Source of the DNA: Muribaculaceae bacterium
GTDB lineage: Bacteria; Bacteroidota; Bacteroidia; Bacteroidales; Muribaculaceae
DNA: 61,055 nucleotides
Assembly (NCBI GenBank): GCA_016290325.1
Contig: JAEETL010000014.1
Span: 1 to 61,055, forward strand
Direction: 5' to 3'
The notes below the pieces were generated by a model. That model worked only from the letters and a program-made list of their open reading frames with translations, did not search any database and was not told where the DNA came from. Position numbers and translations under genes: made by a program. Position 1 is the stretch's first letter; every line of letters starts with the position of its first letter. Shown piece by piece: positions 41,411-60,011 of this stretch.

Positions 41411-41489
41411 TCATTATATGAGGATATTACGCTCCAGCATGTTTAGAATTTCATGTGCTGGTGGGGGTTGAATTGTGCGCTTCGGTACT

Positions 41490-42893
41490 TCATCGGGTCA
41501 GGATGCGCATGTGGGCCTTGGGGTAGCGCAATACCAGGCAAGAGGCCTCGGTCATCACCAGTGCATCAACGTTGCGCACGCCGCTCTTCTTGAGGTTCAA
41601 CTGCTCGGTGCTGAAGGGGATGTGGGTGTACTTCTGGATATACTCGGGATCGATGACGATGCCGTTTTCCTTCAATCCCACCTCGTCAAACACCTCGCTC
41701 AACAGCAGGTAAAGGCAACCGAATTTACTACGTAACTCAGCGAAGTCTATACCCCATTTGCTCACATGCTGGCCGGCATGGATGATGCGGGTATATTCAA
41801 GTTTGCTGATCTTGCTGATCAAGCCGCTGCCGCCAATCAGGATCTTACGCTTGCTGCCAGTGTTGCCGGTAAAGGCCTCGCGCATCAGGTTCACCAGCGT
41901 ATCCTCGTTTAACTCGGTCGTCGACTCCAGATAGAAATTCTTGCCCGCCTGGTTCCAGATTCCGCCAGTGAAATAGACGTGCTCTTTCTTGTAGGGGTCC
42001 CATATTTGGCGCGCAACGCCAAAGAGGTAGGACTTCTCGATGCCCATGCGCATGTCATAGACCGCGGCCTCCTCCTGGTCGCTCATCGTCCAGCCCACCT
42101 CCTTGTTAGACAGGCGCTGCAAGGTGGACTGCTCGACCTGCATCTTAAAGATTTGGCACAGGTTGCGGCTTTTCTTGGGGAGGGCCTCAAACTGGGGTGA
42201 CTGCACATCGAGTTCGCTGGCTGCACGACCCATGCGGATCAGTCTGACACCACTCGAGATGGCGGGAAAACAGTTGGGCACACCAGCGATAGTGGGACCA
42301 TTCACGGCCATGACCGCAACACCTTCGTTAGTGCGGTTGATGACATAGAGCATGAGATCCTGACCGCTCTCGGTCACGCCGTTACTGTCATAGCCCGACA
42401 CGTTCTGCACCAGGATAGTGTCGGTGGGGTCAAACATGTCGTTGTTATTGGTGTGGATGACAATGATGGGTGTTTCGTCACCCTCACTCACGTCAGACGC
42501 GGGAATGGAATCGGTCAACTTAGTGACTGTCGGCTTGGTGTCAACGCTGTAATAATCGACGACCATGCTTCCCGCGTGTTTGCTGCCCGCATATCTCGAA
42601 ATCTGGTCGATGGGCGTGGACATGGGGCGGATTTTCACGATTTGCTGGTCAATCTCGTTGAGCAGCAGGTCAGGAGAGCCTTCGCGGGCAAGTTCGGTGG
42701 TTAGCGGTCCCTCGACGACATGTTTGCCGTCCTCAACACCAGCGATGATCATGCCCACTGCCAGACTGGCGCTACCGCCATCAGTGAGGCACGAGGACAA
42801 GATGGCGATAAGAATCATGGTGATGACAAAGATAACTAATTTCTTGTGGTTGCTGATCCAGCGCAACGCAGTTTTGATTTTGATAACGTTCAT
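41490..42893 (-). CDS. Phage major-capsid-like protein with hydrophobic/lipobox N-terminus
   Basis: A 467-aa protein. From about residue 60 it reads like an SU10/DUF5309-type (HK97-fold) major capsid protein: SPDLLLNEIDQQIVKIRP, TPIDQISRYAG, the strand-rich middle, RNLCQIFKMQVEQSTLQRL, and a Met/Glu-rich helix before SYLFGVARQIWD. LVNLMREAF and IHAGQHVSKWGIDFAEL follow. Unusually, residues 17-35 (KKLVIFVITMILIAILSSC) form a hydrophobic segment ending in a lipobox-like LSSC (Cys35), not expected in a capsid protein. There are no terminase or tail genes nearby. It is preceded by a small acidic ORF (gap 43 nt) and a portal-like gene. Fold assignment is by pattern memory. Confidence 0.65.
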   Translation of the reverse strand: MNVIKIKTALRWISNHKKLVIFVITMILIAILSSCLTDGGSASLAVGMIIAGVEDGKHVVEGPLTTELAREGSPDLLLNEIDQQIVKIRPMSTPIDQISRYAGSKHAGSMVVDYYSVDTKPTVTKLTDSIPASDVSEGDETPIIVIHTNNNDMFDPTDTILVQNVSGYDSNGVTESGQDLMLYVINRTNEGVAVMAVNGPTIAGVPNCFPAISSGVRLIRMGRAASELDVQSPQFEALPKKSRNLCQIFKMQVEQSTLQRLSNKEVGWTMSDQEEAAVYDMRMGIEKSYLFGVARQIWDPYKKEHVYFTGGIWNQAGKNFYLESTTELNEDTLVNLMREAFTGNTGSKRKILIGGSGLISKISKLEYTRIIHAGQHVSKWGIDFAELRSKFGCLYLLLSEVFDEVGLKENGIVIDPEYIQKYTHIPFSTEQLNLKKSGVRNVDALVMTEASCLVLRYPKAHMRILTR

Positions 42894-42936
42894 GGTTTTT
42901 GAAAAAGTTTAAAGATTAAAGTTTGTTGTTTTGTGA

Positions 42937-43320
42937 TTAGTCCCAGATGCTGCGGTGGCAGTAGCGGGGAAAGTTGATGGATAGGCCCGCATTGTTGCTA
43001 TCCTCTTCGGGTTGCGGGTGCAGGACTGCTTCGATCTTCTCGTTTCGCCCACGTAGATAGCCGGCCGCGTCGGCATTCTGCACGTCATCATCGTGGGTGA
43101 TGCCGTGGACGATGGTAGTGAGCAGTTCAGTCGTTACCGCGTGTGGCTCAAGGCCAGCGGTGAGTTCGGTGAGCCGTTTGGTCGTGCTTTCGTCCAGCCC
43201 CATGCTGCCTAGTTTGTCGGCAAGGGTGGGGGAGGCGGTCGGCATCTCTTCAGGCTCTTCATCGGCGTGAAAAGGTGGTGGAGTCACCGTTTCCTGTTCA
43301 GGATGATCTTGTGTTTCCAT
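42937..43320 (-). CDS. Small acidic protein in scaffold position
   Basis: A 127-aa protein with a Pro/Glu-rich acidic N-terminus (METQDHPEQETVTPPPFHADEE) and a helical middle with LADKLGSMGL, followed by DDDVQNADAAGYLRGRNEKIEAVL and a basic end (FPRYCHRSIWD). No signal peptide. It sits between portal-like and capsid-like genes, where phages usually encode scaffold or head-maturation proteins. That role is inferred from position and composition only. Confidence 0.55.
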   Translation of the reverse strand: METQDHPEQETVTPPPFHADEEPEEMPTASPTLADKLGSMGLDESTTKRLTELTAGLEPHAVTTELLTTIVHGITHDDDVQNADAAGYLRGRNEKIEAVLHPQPEEDSNNAGLSINFPRYCHRSIWD

Positions 43321-43740
43321 GTTGATAATAAATAATTAAGGTGAATAATAAAGGATTTATATAATCGACGCCTTAGCGTGACTTCAACCCAATTAGAGCA
43401 ATGCCTAAGTCATCTGATGTGAATGCTATGTCATAATTCATCAGCTGGAATATTAACCGCCCTTCGGGCGGGAAAACTTGAGCAAATCGAAGGCCATGAA
43501 GTTTACTTCAATGGCTGAGATGCCGCCAAGTTTCGGGAAATTAAAACAAATTTTGTATTAAAATTGATGTAATTGAAATTTTTATAATAATTTTTTATAT
43601 TTAATTTGTTTAAATTTCTCGAGCGAAGCTCGATCAATGTTTCAATCGAGTGTTTTGCAGCAATCTCTCGTTTTCTTGTGGATAACTAACTGAAAAACAA
43701 TTAAACTAGAGTCTCTTGGCATTGCTGTGCGCTCGCACTA
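43321..43740. other. 420-nt AT-rich gap inside the phage-head-like module
   Basis: No credible ORF. It contains a half-like CGCCTTAGCGTGA motif (about 43368-43380) and a repeat element (43427-43640) related to the MITE-like element at 26075. The gap separates the portal-like gene from the next two genes. Confidence 0.7.
43427..43640. repeat. Diverged relative of the MITE-like element
   Basis: It shares the order seen at 26075-26249. TGTCATAATTCA is followed by AATATTAACCG and a GC hairpin (CCGCCCTTCGGGCGG). GGGAAATTAAAACAAATT, an AATTGAT core and AATTTGTTTAAATTTC come next, and a second hairpin (CTCGAGCGAAGCTCGA) ends the copy. About 40 extra bases follow the first hairpin, and the right terminal repeat is not evident. 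Confidence 0.5.
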
Positions 43741-45159
43741 TCATGAGGCCAATGCCCCCATTTTGCGGTCACGCTGGCGGCGGAAGGCCTCAAATGTGTC
43801 AAACACGTCACTCAAGGCGATGTTGGCATTCTCGCTTTGCAGTTGATAGACGCCCGCGCTGTTCACCGTGGGATTCTTACCCTGCAGGGCGCCGCTCACG
43901 CCGCTGATTTCCTCAAACAGCTTCATCTGCAACTCAATCATCTGGTAGGCCCCGATGTTTGTCCCGTTACTGCTCACCTGCTCGGGCTTGGCCTCGCTGT
44001 AACGCGGGTTGTAGGGCAGCAAGCCGTTGGCGCTCGACCAGCAACGGCGCGCGTCTTCCCAGGTCCAGCAGTCGGGCAGGGCGGTCTCGGGGAACAGCAG
44101 CACTCCCTTAGCACTGCTGCGCATCACCTGATCCAGCAGCGAAATCATGCGGTTGACGTGTTTCTGGGTGTCAATCAGGTCCTCGACCACGGCATGCACC
44201 TCGCCGTCGGTGAGCGGATAGAGCTTGATGACAAACGGATGGCTGCCGTGGGGCCAGGGTGAGTCATACTCGCACAACAGGTCGCCCATCGGGCTGTACC
44301 ACCGGCAGTGCCACATGGTGGCGATATCCCAACATGTGGATACCTCGGGTGTGTTCTTCAGGCGGTGCAGAGCGCTGGCGGGCTCAACGGTGAGGGTGCC
44401 CTCGCGGCGGTTGTGGCACACGACCACCTCGCGGCTCTCGAGCGTCCACACCTCGATGGCGCGGCACTTGCCATCGGGCGCATGCCAGAAGTCGGTCCCC
44501 AGTTGCGAGTCGGCACCCAGGCGGGTCGTGAAGTCGATGAGGCGGCTCTCGGCGTTGTCGGTGTACAGCCGCCTCACCCATGCGGCCTTGCGCGGATTGC
44601 TACCCGCCACGCGGCGCAGCAGCTGGGCGATGTTCAGGTCATGCAATTGCCCGATGAGTTCGCAGTCCCAGGCGCGGGTGTCGCCCATCGTGTTCACAAA
44701 CAGGCGGTTCACGTTCACGTTATCTACCCTCACTTGCTCATCACGGCCCGGCTCATTGGTGGTTTCAACCCGCTGGATGCAACACCCCGAGATCAGGAAT
44801 TCCTCCAGCGCGCGGCTGTCTAGTTCGTCGAGTTCATTGTGTTGGCCGATTAGGCTCAAGGGAGTGGGGGAGCTCTCGTCGTCCTTCTTGATGTACTGGG
44901 AACGGAAACGGCCCACGATCGTCTTCACCATCTTCCTGATCAGGTTATTGGTGATGCTTTCACAGCCCTGGTGGGCTAGGTGTTCGCCCTCGGTCATCAG
45001 GTTGCCTTGGGGTCCCCTCACCAGGTCGCCCCATTGGTCTCCATAGGTGAACCGCTTGTTTCTGAGCCGGGCCTGCCGCAGCCCAGCCGCGTTCATCCAC
45101 GCCTGGTAGGCTGCCCTCAGCACCCGTGTGTGCTCTTCATGGTTTGTTGGTGTCTTCAT
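43741..45159 (-). CDS. Phage portal-like protein, C-terminally short
   Basis: A 472-aa soluble protein resembling phage portal proteins. It shows RNKRFTYGDQW near residue 40, ITNNLIRKMVKTIVGRFRSQY, a wing-like region with VDNVNVNRLFVNTMGDTRAWD, and VVEDLIDTQKHVNRMISLLDQVM (stem helix). It ends with GVSGALQGKNPTVNSAGVYQLQSENANIALSDVFDTFEAFRRQRDRKM. In portals I know, the chain continues well past this last helix, whereas here it stops four residues later (GALAS). No frame continuation is evident in the next 60 nt. Either a natural short form or a truncation. Head of an isolated head-gene module. Confidence 0.65.
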   Translation of the reverse strand: MKTPTNHEEHTRVLRAAYQAWMNAAGLRQARLRNKRFTYGDQWGDLVRGPQGNLMTEGEHLAHQGCESITNNLIRKMVKTIVGRFRSQYIKKDDESSPTPLSLIGQHNELDELDSRALEEFLISGCCIQRVETTNEPGRDEQVRVDNVNVNRLFVNTMGDTRAWDCELIGQLHDLNIAQLLRRVAGSNPRKAAWVRRLYTDNAESRLIDFTTRLGADSQLGTDFWHAPDGKCRAIEVWTLESREVVVCHNRREGTLTVEPASALHRLKNTPEVSTCWDIATMWHCRWYSPMGDLLCEYDSPWPHGSHPFVIKLYPLTDGEVHAVVEDLIDTQKHVNRMISLLDQVMRSSAKGVLLFPETALPDCWTWEDARRCWSSANGLLPYNPRYSEAKPEQVSSNGTNIGAYQMIELQMKLFEEISGVSGALQGKNPTVNSAGVYQLQSENANIALSDVFDTFEAFRRQRDRKMGALAS

Positions 45160-45470: not shown

Positions 45471-45998
45471 ATGGAGGAGTTTGTTACAACATTGCACGAG
45501 GACCTGCACCGCTACCTGGTGCAGCGCGGTGCCGTGGACGAGCGAATGCCCGAGTGCCCCGACGTGGAGGCCAAGTGGGCCGCTATTGCCGAGGCCTACT
45601 TGCCTGACGGGGCACGTGAGTTTGCCGAATATCCCATCGCCTCGCTGGGCTGGATGATGTTCATCGGCATGGCGGTGGCCAAGTACTGGGACACCGACTG
45701 GGAACGCTATGCCGACGTCGAGGACCTCTACACTCCCATGCGCGATAAGCGCGGCTTTGACAACCTTGACGAGTACATTATGGACGAGGTACTCGACGTG
45801 CACAGCGATGCTGCCGAGCAGTTGCAGGAGCTGGTGGGCGACTGTGCCGAGCGAACCAAGCGCGCCTTGTTCCGCTTGGATGTCGAGCCAGGCACGGCCG
45901 AGGCATTCAAGGCCTATATCGTCTGCCTTCAAGCGATGTACCAGATGGGCATGGCCGTGCAGCTCAAGACCATGGGTTACCACATGACAAAGGTATGA
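45471..45998 (+). CDS. Conserved-looking hypothetical protein
   Basis: A 175-aa soluble, acidic, largely helical protein, not recognised. It begins MEEFVTTLHEDLHRYLVQRG, contains a hydrophobic patch IASLGWMMFIGMAVAKYWD and ends with KAYIVCLQAMYQMGMAVQLKTMGYHMT. No signal peptide. Codon use matches the core genome. A TATCTTTG -7 box lies 25 nt upstream. It precedes a flavoprotein gene, separated by a heptamer array. Confidence 0.7.
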   Translation: MEEFVTTLHEDLHRYLVQRGAVDERMPECPDVEAKWAAIAEAYLPDGAREFAEYPIASLGWMMFIGMAVAKYWDTDWERYADVEDLYTPMRDKRGFDNLDEYIMDEVLDVHSDAAEQLQELVGDCAERTKRALFRLDVEPGTAEAFKAYIVCLQAMYQMGMAVQLKTMGYHMTKV

Positions 45999-57432: not shown

Positions 57433-57519
57433 GGAGAGGTGGGTGAGTGGCTGAAACCAGCAGTTTGCTAAACTGCCGTAGGGGTAACTCTACCGCAAGT
57501 TCGAATCTTGTCCTCTCCG
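57433..57519 (+). tRNA. tRNA-Ser (GCT)
   Basis: An 87-nt tRNA with acceptor stem GGAGAGG/CCTCTCC, discriminator G (57519), a long variable arm (CGTAGGGGTAACTCTACCG), and anticodon stem GCAGT/ACTGC around loop TTGCTAA. CCA is not encoded. It is a frequent integration site for tRNA-targeting elements, and an AT-rich foreign-looking region begins about 300 nt downstream. Confidence 0.95.
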
Positions 57520-57529
57520 CAACCGTGAA

Positions 57530-57569
57530 ACGGAAATCCTTAATTTGCAAGGATTTCCGTTCTTTTTTT
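57530..57569 (+). terminator. Terminator after tRNA-Ser
   Basis: Perfect 12-bp stem ACGGAAATCCTT/AAGGATTTCCGT with loop AATTTGC, then TCTTTTTTT. Confidence 0.9.
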
Positions 57570-57826
57570 CAATTGGTCCCCCGAAAGGGTCCCCCTTCAG
57601 GCCTACCGAAGTTTTTAGTAAACTTTAACGGAAATGATTATTCTGTAGCCATTAGTTTGTCTCTTTTTCCCAACGAAAGTTAACGTTTCTCTTGAATCGT
57701 GGCCAACTTGCTCTACTTTAGACGTCGATTGTTGCAAATCTAACAAATACTATTTATATTTGCAGGGATATTACTGCTTAGTATTCTCTATCACGTTGAA
57801 CGTATTGAATAATAAATATAATTCAA
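57570..57826. other. Junction between tRNA-Ser terminator and unknown gene
   Basis: Contains GGTCCCCC repeated 14 nt apart (57575-57596), no ORF of note, and at 57732-57762 a promoter TTG-N20-TATATTTG for the next gene. The left boundary of the incoming element is expected between the tRNA 3' end and about 57700, but I cannot define an attachment core from one side. Confidence 0.5.
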
Positions 57827-59680
57827 ATGGAACCGTCATCATCTAATTTCATAAATGATTCTTTTGATAGAATGTGTGGTGTAGGCATATTGCCTTATCT
57901 AAAGGCTGGGATTAATCGCCTATTATATCCACAAAAATACATCCTTAAAGGAAATGTGCAAGTGGATAAAGATGACATTATATTAGACGATGACAGACGG
58001 GATGAGGCAGTATTGAGTTTTTGCGAGTTAGTCTTTTCCTACTATGGCTGTCTACATATACTAGACAGCGTAATATCCAAAGCGCTTTGTGGTCACACAT
58101 CTGCATCAATTATTATGGGTGCCATTAACAAGCGTTTTAATTTTGTTAGAAAAAAGAAATATGCAACTTTTCATGAAGTTCATAAATTCTTTGTTAATCT
58201 TAAAGAAAAAGATGATCGAGCTCGTATACTTCAACTTTTTCAATTCAGCGATAAAACCATTATTGAAATTCGAGAACTTTTAGAAGAAGATGATAGATAC
58301 AAACACCAATTGCCGAAGACCGAGGATGATAACTTCGAAAAAGAGTTTTGGTATTTAGAACATAATGACTATGAGATTTCCAATAAAAAAGAAAATGAAG
58401 TAAAACCATATTCTGAAGACAGCCATCGTAGGTTTAGTAAACTAATCAAGCGCGGAGTCTATCTCCCATTATTTTTTGCTGTTCAAGTTTTCAATCATAT
58501 CATCAAATCGAGATTAAGAACTGATCATTTCCTTTTAGATTTTGCTTTTGTTTCGGGATATGACTACAAATTAAACACGTTGTCTCTTTATGATGCGTTC
58601 TCCAAAAGAACACAACGCTATTTCGACCCTCTTGAAACGTATTTGTTCTTCTATAATAACCCGTCCTTTTCAGATTGCAAGTTTACAAAATGGGTAGATG
58701 AATGGCTTGATGATTTTGATTCGTTTGTAAAAATAGATGAATTCCAGAAATGGATTGATTATGAATCAGATGAATTTGAAGAAGATCTTAATGATACTAT
58801 ATTTAAATTAGAAAAAGATATCATAGATTTCCTTTTAACCAGAGGATGGAATTTCATTGCCTATAGTCAGTTTAATGAAAATACAAATATGTACGTATCG
58901 CCCAAAGAGGACTTCAAGAAATTTGTTGGAGATGAGTTGAAGCGTCAGGCTGTAAGGTTTTCTATAATTCAGGAATTTATTCCTATTCCTGATGGAGAAA
59001 GAGTCTCAATAAATTGGTGGCTAAGTAAGACCCACTACCACACAATCTTCAATAAACTTGTTGAGTATTATTCGGCAACGCATTTAGATAAAGGACAAAA
59101 ACAAACACCCTTACAAGAAGCGGAACCATCTGCAACGAAGAAAAGCAATGACGATGAACAACAAAACATTCCTGTTATTGTCATCGATAAAGATGAAGCA
59201 CACAAACAGTGGTTTGTAAGGGTTCATGAGAAAAAAATTAATGCACAGCCTGATGAATGGAACAAGAAACTATATACTTGTCTTGACGCGTTATACGAAT
59301 CGCTAGTTAAAAATAGACTAATGTGTGAGTCATCGAATAAGGAATTGTTTATATATCGCTTTTCTGGCTTTAACATCCCAGAGTCATTCAATCCGCAAGA
59401 AAAAATAAGGTGGGAAGGAAAAAATGTTCTGCTCGGATTCATTGTGCGATGCCTAATCACGTATACTGGGACCGATGCTAAAGGTTTAGGTACTGTAGCA
59501 ACATTTTTTGAAAGCAAAAGAGGTAAGAATGTAAATCTCGCAACAGCAGAGTTTATAAGCAAAGAAAAATATAATCAAAATCCAAACATGTATCCAGTTC
59601 TCTCACATGCAGTTGAAATTCTAAAAGAATGCGGATTTGAAGAGGTTGAAGCCACTTCAACAAGAAAAAGAGATAAATGA
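57827..59680 (+). CDS. Unknown 617-aa protein of the AT-rich island
   Basis: A soluble, charged 617-aa protein not recognised. The N-terminal region has a helical segment DEAVLSFCELVFSYYGCLHILDSVIS. The middle is long and helix-rich with many Asp/Glu/Lys, and a low-complexity linker (about 430-455) precedes VIVIDKDEAHKQWFVRVHEKK. The C-terminal 125 residues start LYTCLDALYESLVKNRLMC and contain KIRWEGKNVLLGFIVRCLITY. This end recalls, from memory only, a module in other Bacteroidetes mobile-element proteins. The gene is strongly AT-rich, with its own promoter and terminator, and is probably cargo of the element. Confidence 0.7.
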   Translation: MEPSSSNFINDSFDRMCGVGILPYLKAGINRLLYPQKYILKGNVQVDKDDIILDDDRRDEAVLSFCELVFSYYGCLHILDSVISKALCGHTSASIIMGAINKRFNFVRKKKYATFHEVHKFFVNLKEKDDRARILQLFQFSDKTIIEIRELLEEDDRYKHQLPKTEDDNFEKEFWYLEHNDYEISNKKENEVKPYSEDSHRRFSKLIKRGVYLPLFFAVQVFNHIIKSRLRTDHFLLDFAFVSGYDYKLNTLSLYDAFSKRTQRYFDPLETYLFFYNNPSFSDCKFTKWVDEWLDDFDSFVKIDEFQKWIDYESDEFEEDLNDTIFKLEKDIIDFLLTRGWNFIAYSQFNENTNMYVSPKEDFKKFVGDELKRQAVRFSIIQEFIPIPDGERVSINWWLSKTHYHTIFNKLVEYYSATHLDKGQKQTPLQEAEPSATKKSNDDEQQNIPVIVIDKDEAHKQWFVRVHEKKINAQPDEWNKKLYTCLDALYESLVKNRLMCESSNKELFIYRFSGFNIPESFNPQEKIRWEGKNVLLGFIVRCLITYTGTDAKGLGTVATFFESKRGKNVNLATAEFISKEKYNQNPNMYPVLSHAVEILKECGFEEVEATSTRKRDK

Positions 59681-59718
59681 AGCATTAGATAGTCCCCACA
59701 CGGGAATCTTTATTACCG

Positions 59719-59749
59719 GCGCTGTAACGAAGAGTTGCGGCGTTTTTTT
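59719..59749 (+). terminator. Terminator of the 617-aa gene
   Basis: CGCTGTAAC (59720-59728), loop GAAGA, GTTGCGGCG (59734-59742); 9-bp stem with two G-U pairs, followed by TTTTTTTG. Confidence 0.75.
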
Positions 59750-59909
59750 GTTGTCTGGATATGTGGAACGAGATAATCAGAACACTATCTGAATAAAGCC
59801 GAACGCTCCCGAATCCATATAGAGATGTCAAAGCAGACCATCGGAGCTAAACTTCAGTTCTTGTTTGTGAACACCTCGATTTAACCTGACTAGATTTACC
59901 CTTGACTAT

Positions 59910-59999
59910 TTTATTGAATACGCCTCAGAAGTTTATTGAATTTTATTGAGTTTTATTGAGTATACAAAATTTTTATTGAGCTTCAAAATACTTTATTGA
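59910..59999 (+). repeat. Six phased TTTATTGA direct repeats
   Basis: Exact TTTATTGA begins at 59910, 59932, 59942, 59952, 59972 and 59992. Spacings are 22, 10, 10, 20 and 20 nt, close to whole helical turns, so the sites face one side of the DNA. The last copy ends 12 nt before the -33 box of the DUF3853 promoter. This is consistent with cooperative binding by a regulator, an accessory integration protein or a replication initiator. Confidence 0.9.
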
Positions 60000-60011
60000 C
60001 ACATGTAAATG

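Follow-up and report, generated by a model that had tools for sequence, protein, structure and literature searches.

Muribaculaceae are abundant in mouse and ruminant guts. We analyzed 61,055 nucleotides from a member of this family (GenBank assembly GCA_016290325.1, contig JAEETL010000014.1, positions 1 to 61,055; hereafter the window), in which three minus-strand genes of phage-head type sit between ordinary chromosomal genes (Table 1). An earlier description made without database searches (the sequence-only reading) had proposed a portal-like, a small acidic and a capsid-like gene in open frames, and we confirm both their positions and their intact frames. Here, we describe this trio together with phage-type packaging and tail genes found elsewhere in the same genome and weigh their interpretation as parts of a gene transfer agent (GTA).

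Table 1. Phage-type genes and associated features of the genome analyzed (window positions unless a contig is named)
Feature	Position	Strand	Description
Portal	43741-45159	minus	truncated P22/SU10-type, 472 aa, ATG start, no internal stop
Scaffold-like acidic protein	42937-43320	minus	127 aa, ATG start, no internal stop
Major capsid protein (MCP)	41490-42893	minus	SU10_MCP, HK97 fold, 467 aa, ATG start, no internal stop
M15 endolysin remnant (stub)	41443-41541	minus	partial M15 match plus reading of the sequence; middle missing
AT-rich spacer, portal to scaffold gene	43321-43740		about 420 bp
TerL and nozzle locus	G000:C38:44173-48067		two genes side by side, on a separate contig from the trio (C5)

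Head genes of the window and packaging genes elsewhere in the genome

The capsid-like and portal-like calls of the sequence-only reading are supported by protein family profiles. The MCP matches Pfam SU10_MCP (E 4.8e-48) and phrog_26635 (E 5.6e-87), and its AlphaFold model (predicted local distance difference test [pLDDT] 77) is matched by Foldseek to the VP1 capsid 9in6 (E 1.3e-21), to crAss001 7qof (E 4.9e-14) and to P1, SU10 and HK97. Structure prediction, which had been suggested as a check, therefore places the protein with HK97-fold phage capsids. A profile search of the sequences of solved structures returned VP1 alone (9in6, E 5.9e-14); one MCP with a stop inside (L218) was excluded from the structure alignment. 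The protein carries an N-terminal hydrophobic helix at about residues 17-35 (hydropathy maximum 2.74 at residue 19), which might anchor it to the membrane until cleaved. This lipobox-like start was considered as a domestication feature and rejected: it is found in phage MCPs and Barnesiella-type MCPs as well, and the MCPs of five further Muribaculaceae genera, each sampled by one genome, lack it. In related phages, a rhomboid-annotated protease gene is located near helix-starting MCPs (L056:18151-18618 and L050:12541-13044).

The predicted portal is identified by its family profile (Pfam P22_portal, E 5.3e-15; the portal family phrog_156, E 3.3e-38), with the match confined to profile positions 109-453 of 681. 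All 15 aligned portals of the family, across genera, terminate at one and the same helix and lack 108-142 C-terminal residues present in five aligned phage, prophage and Barnesiella-type portals. The acidic protein (computed isoelectric point 4.5) has no Pfam match and weak PHROG matches (best E 0.0055). An earlier profile mixing host and phage members was no test of relation, and separate profiles were used instead. One built from 23 host-borne members matches four of the five named phage-type scaffolds (E 6e-11 to 1e-6; BF1-TP2 was missed), and one built from the five phage-type scaffolds matches the acidic protein of the window (E 9.7e-9). Because these separately built profiles match each other, profile comparison relates the acidic protein to phage scaffolds. 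Host-type scaffold open reading frames (ORFs) are 118-188 aa long, versus 251-331 aa for the phage type, and the short form retains the C-terminal motif of the phage-type scaffolds (250-330 aa).

When the window ORFs of at least 60 aa were compared with phage structural, packaging and lysis genes using phmmer or profiles, the trio alone matched; to this we later added an endolysin stub matching M15 residues 1-21 (41479-41541, E 4.3e-5). The earlier observation that no terminase, tail or lysis gene lies on either side therefore holds for the window, the stub aside, but not for the genome. Because MCP and portal lie apart in part of the genus, as detailed below, the rest of the phage gene set was searched for, with a gene list taken from the related Bacteroides phages BF1-TP2 and BKO1-TP3. 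This located an intact gene for the terminase large subunit (TerL) on another contig of the window's genome (G000:C38:44173-45795; a 630-aa ORF in L108), which matches phrog_2 terminase (E 5.4e-21). T4 gp17 is matched (E 1.7e-17) by a profile built from one host-borne TerL and three TerLs from phages or prophages. The core Walker A, Walker B and nuclease residues, motifs that we take to have their usual roles here, are kept in 19/19 TerLs of the family, with some change around them.

Adjoining TerL is a 696-aa member of the nozzle-like tail protein family (G000:C38:46001-48067). We modeled it through the AlphaFold structure of P0121, 93% identical to the window-genome protein (pLDDT 84). The top 14 Foldseek matches of this model are phage tail or virion entries (HRP29, SU10, T7, LME-1, P22, Pa223, Sf6 and others; E 3e-12 to 4e-8), with modest TM-scores of 0.29-0.39 by query length. 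In the near clade, defined as the half of the genus whose MCPs are at least about 75% identical to the window's, the nozzle matches in two parts, skipping model positions ~363-470. The eight neighbors of the TerL and nozzle genes scanned against Pfam were host-type or without a match, with no integrase or replication gene among them.

Distribution and gene arrangement across Muribaculaceae

The window MCP finds a match in 59 of the 61 genomes of its genus, its own included (none in G020 or G033), and in three of 40 other genomes. A portal match is likewise present in 59/61 (none in G020 or G040). The survey for the trio that had been proposed as a check thus speaks against a decaying remnant. 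Near-clade genomes usually have the order portal, scaffold, MCP, M15 endolysin. Nine of 12 near-clade genomes, within a search of 16 genomes, have M15 at full length (Pfam Peptidase_M15_3, E 2.6e-20; phrog_894 endolysin, E 5.1e-36), and in most near relatives it is the next gene after MCP. In the other half of the genus, the portal is usually away from the MCP. The single-contig genome G060 (3.34 Mb) has its genes in four places: TerL (937082), M15 with portal (1357979 and 1358446), connector (1539678) and MCP (1893624). A first search for the connector gave a match in 14/37 genomes of the genus.

Elsewhere in the family, most of the set lies together. A cluster in genus g66 (L070) encodes, in order, a 161-aa protein, a 152-aa protein, portal (482 aa), connector (179 aa), MCP (486 aa), scaffold (131 aa), TerL (661 aa) and nozzle (878 aa); L124 of the same genus is similar, and L068 (genus g61) has the L070-type set without TerL and nozzle. 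We guess that the 152-aa family may be the small terminase. The 9.4-kb IMG/VR contig L222 reads nozzle, TerL, scaffold, MCP, connector, portal (470 aa). The genes thus recur across Muribaculaceae, largely clustered in some loci and dispersed in the window's genus. Because the genome also has adjacent TerL and nozzle genes on another contig, the trio is not an isolated head module, and its treatment as a complete unit is overturned. What survives of the earlier proposal of an isolated, domesticated head module is that phage head genes were domesticated and kept; its isolation is contradicted by these two genes and by the loci that hold most of the set (L070, L124 and L222).

We extended the survey to 225 Muribaculaceae genomes at least 90% complete, in which host-type and prophage-type matches were tallied together. 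MCP matches were found in 211 (25/26 genera), TerL in 213, portal in 215 and nozzle in 212 (26/26). For MCP, 174/225 genomes match at E <=1.3e-64, 37 weakly (35 of these in genus g56) and 14 not at all; the stronger threshold is reached by 164 of the 177 genomes outside g56. Seven of the 174 score above 1e-100 (G123, G224, G230, G233, G237, G242 and G245) and could be phage-type, because the prophage of G079 itself scores 4.8e-78; 167 remain. Exactly one MCP match is present in 186 of the 211 matching genomes. In an order-wide sample, MCP matched in 13 of 158 genomes: three Muribaculaceae, the prophage genome G079 and nine from other families (f22, f28, f58, f65, f84 and f103). Two of these nine (G081 and G087) have MCP and portal apart, in surroundings that look chromosomal by eye. 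Metagenome-assembled genomes from the rumen or other gut sources make up many of the named matches.

Across 20 loci in several species, the recurring neighbors are M15 and host genes, two of which were identified as a permease (L033) and a glycosyl hydrolase (L037). The nearest viral contigs, L220-L224, were considered as phage parents of the system and rejected: L221-L223 are host-type clusters (portal 470 aa), L220 forms with L324 one Coprobacter-like contig, and the assembly of L224 is an inverted repeat. Four host-type loci of this system (L221, L222, L223 and L224) are catalogued as viruses in IMG/VR. Additional observations concern the MCP gene. In two separate records it is split near codon 250: at the end of IMG/VR contig L055 (8434-11052), where residues 250-467 adjoin a recombinase (phrog_95 integrase, E 2.2e-44; phrog_125 DNA invertase), and in G007 (C52:40565-42027), where it lies in pieces 1-251 and 245-467. 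This position may be an insertion site for a mobile element. In G037, a second partial copy comprising the MCP 3' end and M15 (C8:129095-129803) lies ~4 kb from the main copy.

Selection, phylogeny, composition and surroundings

We estimated the ratio of nonsynonymous to synonymous substitution rates (dN/dS) by NG86 from near-clade genomes with whole ORFs, using 12 of 14 near-clade loci (L040 and L041 were left out). Medians were 0.178 for MCP (66/66 pairs), 0.124 for portal (66/66), 0.32 for scaffold (45/45), 0.167 for M15 (15/15), 0.106 for TerL and 0.17 for nozzle (three pairs each for the last two). For MCP and portal, the window genome compared with 11 near-clade relatives gave 0.06-0.21, with dS of 0.29-2.1 for window-genome pairs and values at high dS being rough. 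These ratios indicate that the genes are under purifying selection. A value near 1 had been named as the mark of decay; the medians for MCP, portal, TerL and nozzle (0.11-0.18) are far from it.

Homologs of MCP, scaffold, connector, portal, TerL, nozzle and the 152-aa protein are found in BF1-TP2 and BKO1-TP3 (PQ571263 and PQ571269) and in related IMG/VR contigs. These differ from the host-borne set in being complete phage genomes or viral contigs, with full-length portals (622 and 656 aa) and longer TerLs. MCPs of the related phages are 33-41% identical to the window's (36-39% for BF1-TP2 and BKO1-TP3), and this group forms a clade separate from the host-borne rows in both the MCP and TerL trees. 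The proteins of PQ571263 and PQ571269 that align as TerL (L056:16107-18134 and L057:15841-17955) are annotated as 'tail spike protein'.

In the MCP tree (64 rows, with 24 viral MCPs hand-picked from 80 loci), host-borne and phage rows are split by branches with support 100/99; the host side includes L220 (Coprobacter-like), L221, L222 and L224. In the TerL tree (53 rows), built by a quick method without bootstraps and with 39 of 52 IMG/VR TerLs dropped for speed, 22 GTA-type rows fall on one side of a branch with SH-aLRT 100, and 13 prophage TerLs from the same family fall among phages. Long branches (G280, G152 and G079) and odd composition in six rows were flagged in this tree. Genera sampled more than once group together (g1, seven rows; g66, four; g54, two), and two genomes (G173 and G175) carry one TerL of each type. 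The distance matrices of MCP, portal, TerL and nozzle correlate with one another (rho 0.41-0.67; 0-3 of 1000 permutations as high).

Structural proteins of RcGTA-like, alphaproteobacterial GTAs are described as carbon-poorer than their viral homologs in the accessible text of PMC7360931. A parallel difference appears here in carbon per residue, for which TerL and portal were compared and p values are indicative because rows are related. GTA-type TerLs average 3.036 (n=22) versus 3.155 for same-family prophage TerLs (n=13; p 1e-6), and portals 2.958 (n=15) versus 3.263 (n=12; p 6e-6), with no overlap for portal. Within the two genomes carrying both TerL types, the values are 3.021 versus 3.134 and 3.038 versus 3.125.

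As at the TerL and nozzle genes, the scanned neighbors of the trio are ordinary host genes. Fifteen flanking proteins (5 + 10), a subset of the ORFs of the 61-kb window, were scanned against Pfam; two had no match (one at 45471-45998), and the others were host-type, with families such as FMN reductase, methyltransferase, glycosyl transferase, P-type ATPase, polysaccharide synthesis and outer membrane protein barrel. No integrase, replication or other phage gene was found among these 15, and together with the phage-gene scan they show no contiguous run of structural, lysis, integration and replication genes of the kind that defines a prophage. The portal-to-scaffold spacer, with its length in the window as given in Table 1, is ~400 bp in the nearest relative (G058) and 37-47 bp in L033 and L034 (G052 and G036); ~380 bp of it is extra AT-rich sequence, present in G058 and not in L033 or L034. 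A 25-base piece of the spacer has no second copy within the window at up to three mismatches. Farther along the window, at 57433-60000, G+C content falls to 33-41% near a tRNA-Ser gene (57433-57520) and beyond it. A 617-aa ORF of this region has no Pfam or PHROG match, and the region is perhaps an inserted element.

A candidate gene transfer agent and its alternatives

We conclude that the trio is probably one locus of a dispersed, host-owned, podovirus-type GTA of Muribaculaceae. The accessible text of PMC9662315 defines GTAs by six features: caudoviricete-derived proteins forming caudovirion-like particles; encapsidation of mostly random host DNA; a fully endogenised genome, often in several loci; a head too small for the GTA's own genes; vertical inheritance with host co-diversification; and delivery of the packaged DNA to other cells. 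Judged from the genes, two of these are present: the first as far as its proteins go (profile or fold identifies MCP, portal, TerL and nozzle), and the endogenised, multi-locus genome (portal, scaffold and MCP on C5, TerL and nozzle on C38, and four places in G060). A further one, vertical inheritance, is partly supported. The system is thus a GTA candidate by its anatomy and not a proven member.

Under the GTA interpretation, MCP and the short scaffold would assemble a small HK97-type shell in a few cells, with the truncated portal as its single gate. TerL would fill the shell headful-style with whatever host DNA it engages, a non-specific mode of packaging, and the nozzle would plug this gate, serving as a very short tail. 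In genomes that have it, the M15 peptidase may aid lysis, and released particles would bring host DNA to sister cells. Because the window's clade has a shorter nozzle and no detectable connector, direct docking of nozzle on portal is conceivable there, or a diverged protein may bridge the gap.

Among the described systems closest in make-up is FpGTA of Faecalibacterium prausnitzii (accessible text of PMC12946183). It too belongs to a gut anaerobe, comprises TerL, portal, scaffold and MCP of short-tail type, occupies two separate loci and has lysis genes apart from the head locus. It differs in phylum and in that its particles and packaged DNA were shown, whereas the Muribaculaceae set is known from its genes; the latter is also family-wide, dispersed and equipped with a truncated portal, and the likeness described here is one of make-up. 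Similar parallels of make-up extend to RcGTA, BaGTA and BhGTA (Rhodo-, Barto- and Brachygtaviriformidae; accessible text of PMC9662315 and PMC11841831), which have phage-derived head, packaging and tail genes, are endogenised, often multi-locus and, as the Muribaculaceae set may be, vertically inherited, with energy-cheap proteins reported for RcGTA-like members; they belong to other lineages, and their activity was shown experimentally. According to the accessible part of PMC11841831, GTAs tend to be spread over several loci, a few of which consist of just one or two genes, and are taken wrongly for prophages. The main texts of PMC12946183 and PMC11841831 do not contain 'Muribacul' or 'Barnesiella' and 'Bacteroid', respectively. 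We found no GTA of Muribaculaceae or Bacteroidota in the titles and abstract beginnings of open-licence PubMed Central (PMC) literature, a body that leaves preprints and most subscription papers outside, nor 'gene transfer agent' together with Muribaculaceae in open-licence PMC papers. The sequence-only reading knew of no described system of this make-up; within the literature searched this still applies to Bacteroidota, but the make-up itself is close to a described kind, the GTAs.

Several observations weigh against the GTA interpretation. The candidate is known from genes alone, from which we infer assembly, packaging, release and delivery. At E 1e-3, the connector was detected in none of 17 genomes (16 near-clade, including the window's, and G012) in a second search of 19 genomes, in which both far-clade controls, genomes outside the query, were positive. 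Three weak near-clade candidates (E 0.009-0.35) were rejected as partial, one with four stops. The endolysin, a stub in the window genome, is missing from G035 and split into two pieces in G025. No holin, tail-fibre or receptor-binding gene turned up, with no search aimed at them. Broken or fragmentary MCPs occur in G007, G015 and G042, a stop interrupts the portal of G022, and the portal match is split in two in G012, G013, G016 and G029. Many unrelated beta-propellers follow the phage tails in the nozzle Foldseek list. In genus g56, 10/48 genomes reach the stronger MCP threshold, and the system has therefore often been lost or much diverged there. Congruence was measured among the distance matrices of the four genes themselves. 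Finally, the two TerL groups touch in carbon per residue (maximum 3.127 for the GTA type, minimum 3.123 for prophages), and general adaptation to the host could also account for low carbon.

Some of these points would be expected of a decaying prophage remnant, its genes persisting by chance after inactivation: portal and scaffold are shorter than their phage homologs, the window's endolysin is a stub, the near-clade connector is undetected and the MCP is broken in three genomes. We regard this explanation as improbable, since the low dN/dS of MCP and portal against the 11 near-clade relatives, their matches in 59/61 genomes, the portal end point shared across genera and the 19/19 TerLs with core residues kept all argue for maintenance; the low dN/dS and genus-wide conservation speak against the earlier suggestion of the last remnant of a prophage. 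We consider it just as improbable that the truncated portal, short scaffold and capsid serve in phage interference, poisoning the assembly of related incoming phages. Such a role would leave the co-conserved TerL, with its intact catalytic residues, and the nozzle unexplained, even if related prophages occur in the same family (in G173 and G175, in the same genomes) and the portal and scaffold are truncated relatives of theirs. Co-assembly is itself unlikely because the related phage MCPs are so distant from the window's in sequence.

The nanocompartment or channel envisaged by the sequence-only reading draws on the HK97 fold that the MCP shares with encapsulin shell proteins, on encapsulin shells among the lower Foldseek matches of the MCP model and on the distance of MCP from portal and TerL in part of the genus. 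A shell storing cargo other than DNA nonetheless seems very unlikely: portal, TerL and nozzle homologs are present in most genomes of the family and lie near MCP in L070, L124 and L222, and the neighbors recurring across the 20 loci are M15 and host genes. To our knowledge, encapsulins have no portal, terminase or nozzle, and the window's genome does not hold an HK97 shell without DNA-packaging machinery but all three of these genes as well. The least likely alternative is a mobile capsid-encoding satellite, akin to capsid-forming phage-inducible chromosomal islands (cf-PICIs), or an active temperate phage. Structural and packaging genes without a long tail, the compact cluster in loci such as L222 and the Coprobacter-like contig L324, which retains more phage-like genes, would suit such an element; the lack of an integrase or replication gene among the neighbors scanned in the window and beside TerL, the single MCP match in most matching genomes, the dispersal in G060 and across contigs in G000, the flanking genes recurring in several species and the clade separate from prophages would not.

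Returning to the GTA interpretation, we tentatively raise an extension that we hold to be possible but on balance doubtful: an independent, ancient Bacteroidota GTA lineage, fixed in an ancestor that Muribaculaceae share with related families (Barnesiella, Coprobacter and others) and among the most widely shared and most dispersed of GTAs. The window's clade would have remodeled it into a minimal, short-tailed particle whose shortened nozzle docks on a truncated portal without a connector.

GTA-like packaging is described in gut Ruminococcaceae and Oscillospiraceae, including the two-locus, probably podovirus-like FpGTA (accessible text of PMC12946183). If the Muribaculaceae system is a working GTA, Bacteroidota would join the groups known to have GTAs, with a lineage additional to these recently reported Gram-positive gut GTAs. 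It would also mean that a whole gut-bacterial family has a built-in means of exchanging chromosomal DNA that needs neither phages nor conjugation. A further caution is that lone phage-like genes of these genomes, recorded as prophage debris or, in the case of L221-L223, as viruses, may belong to one selected machine.

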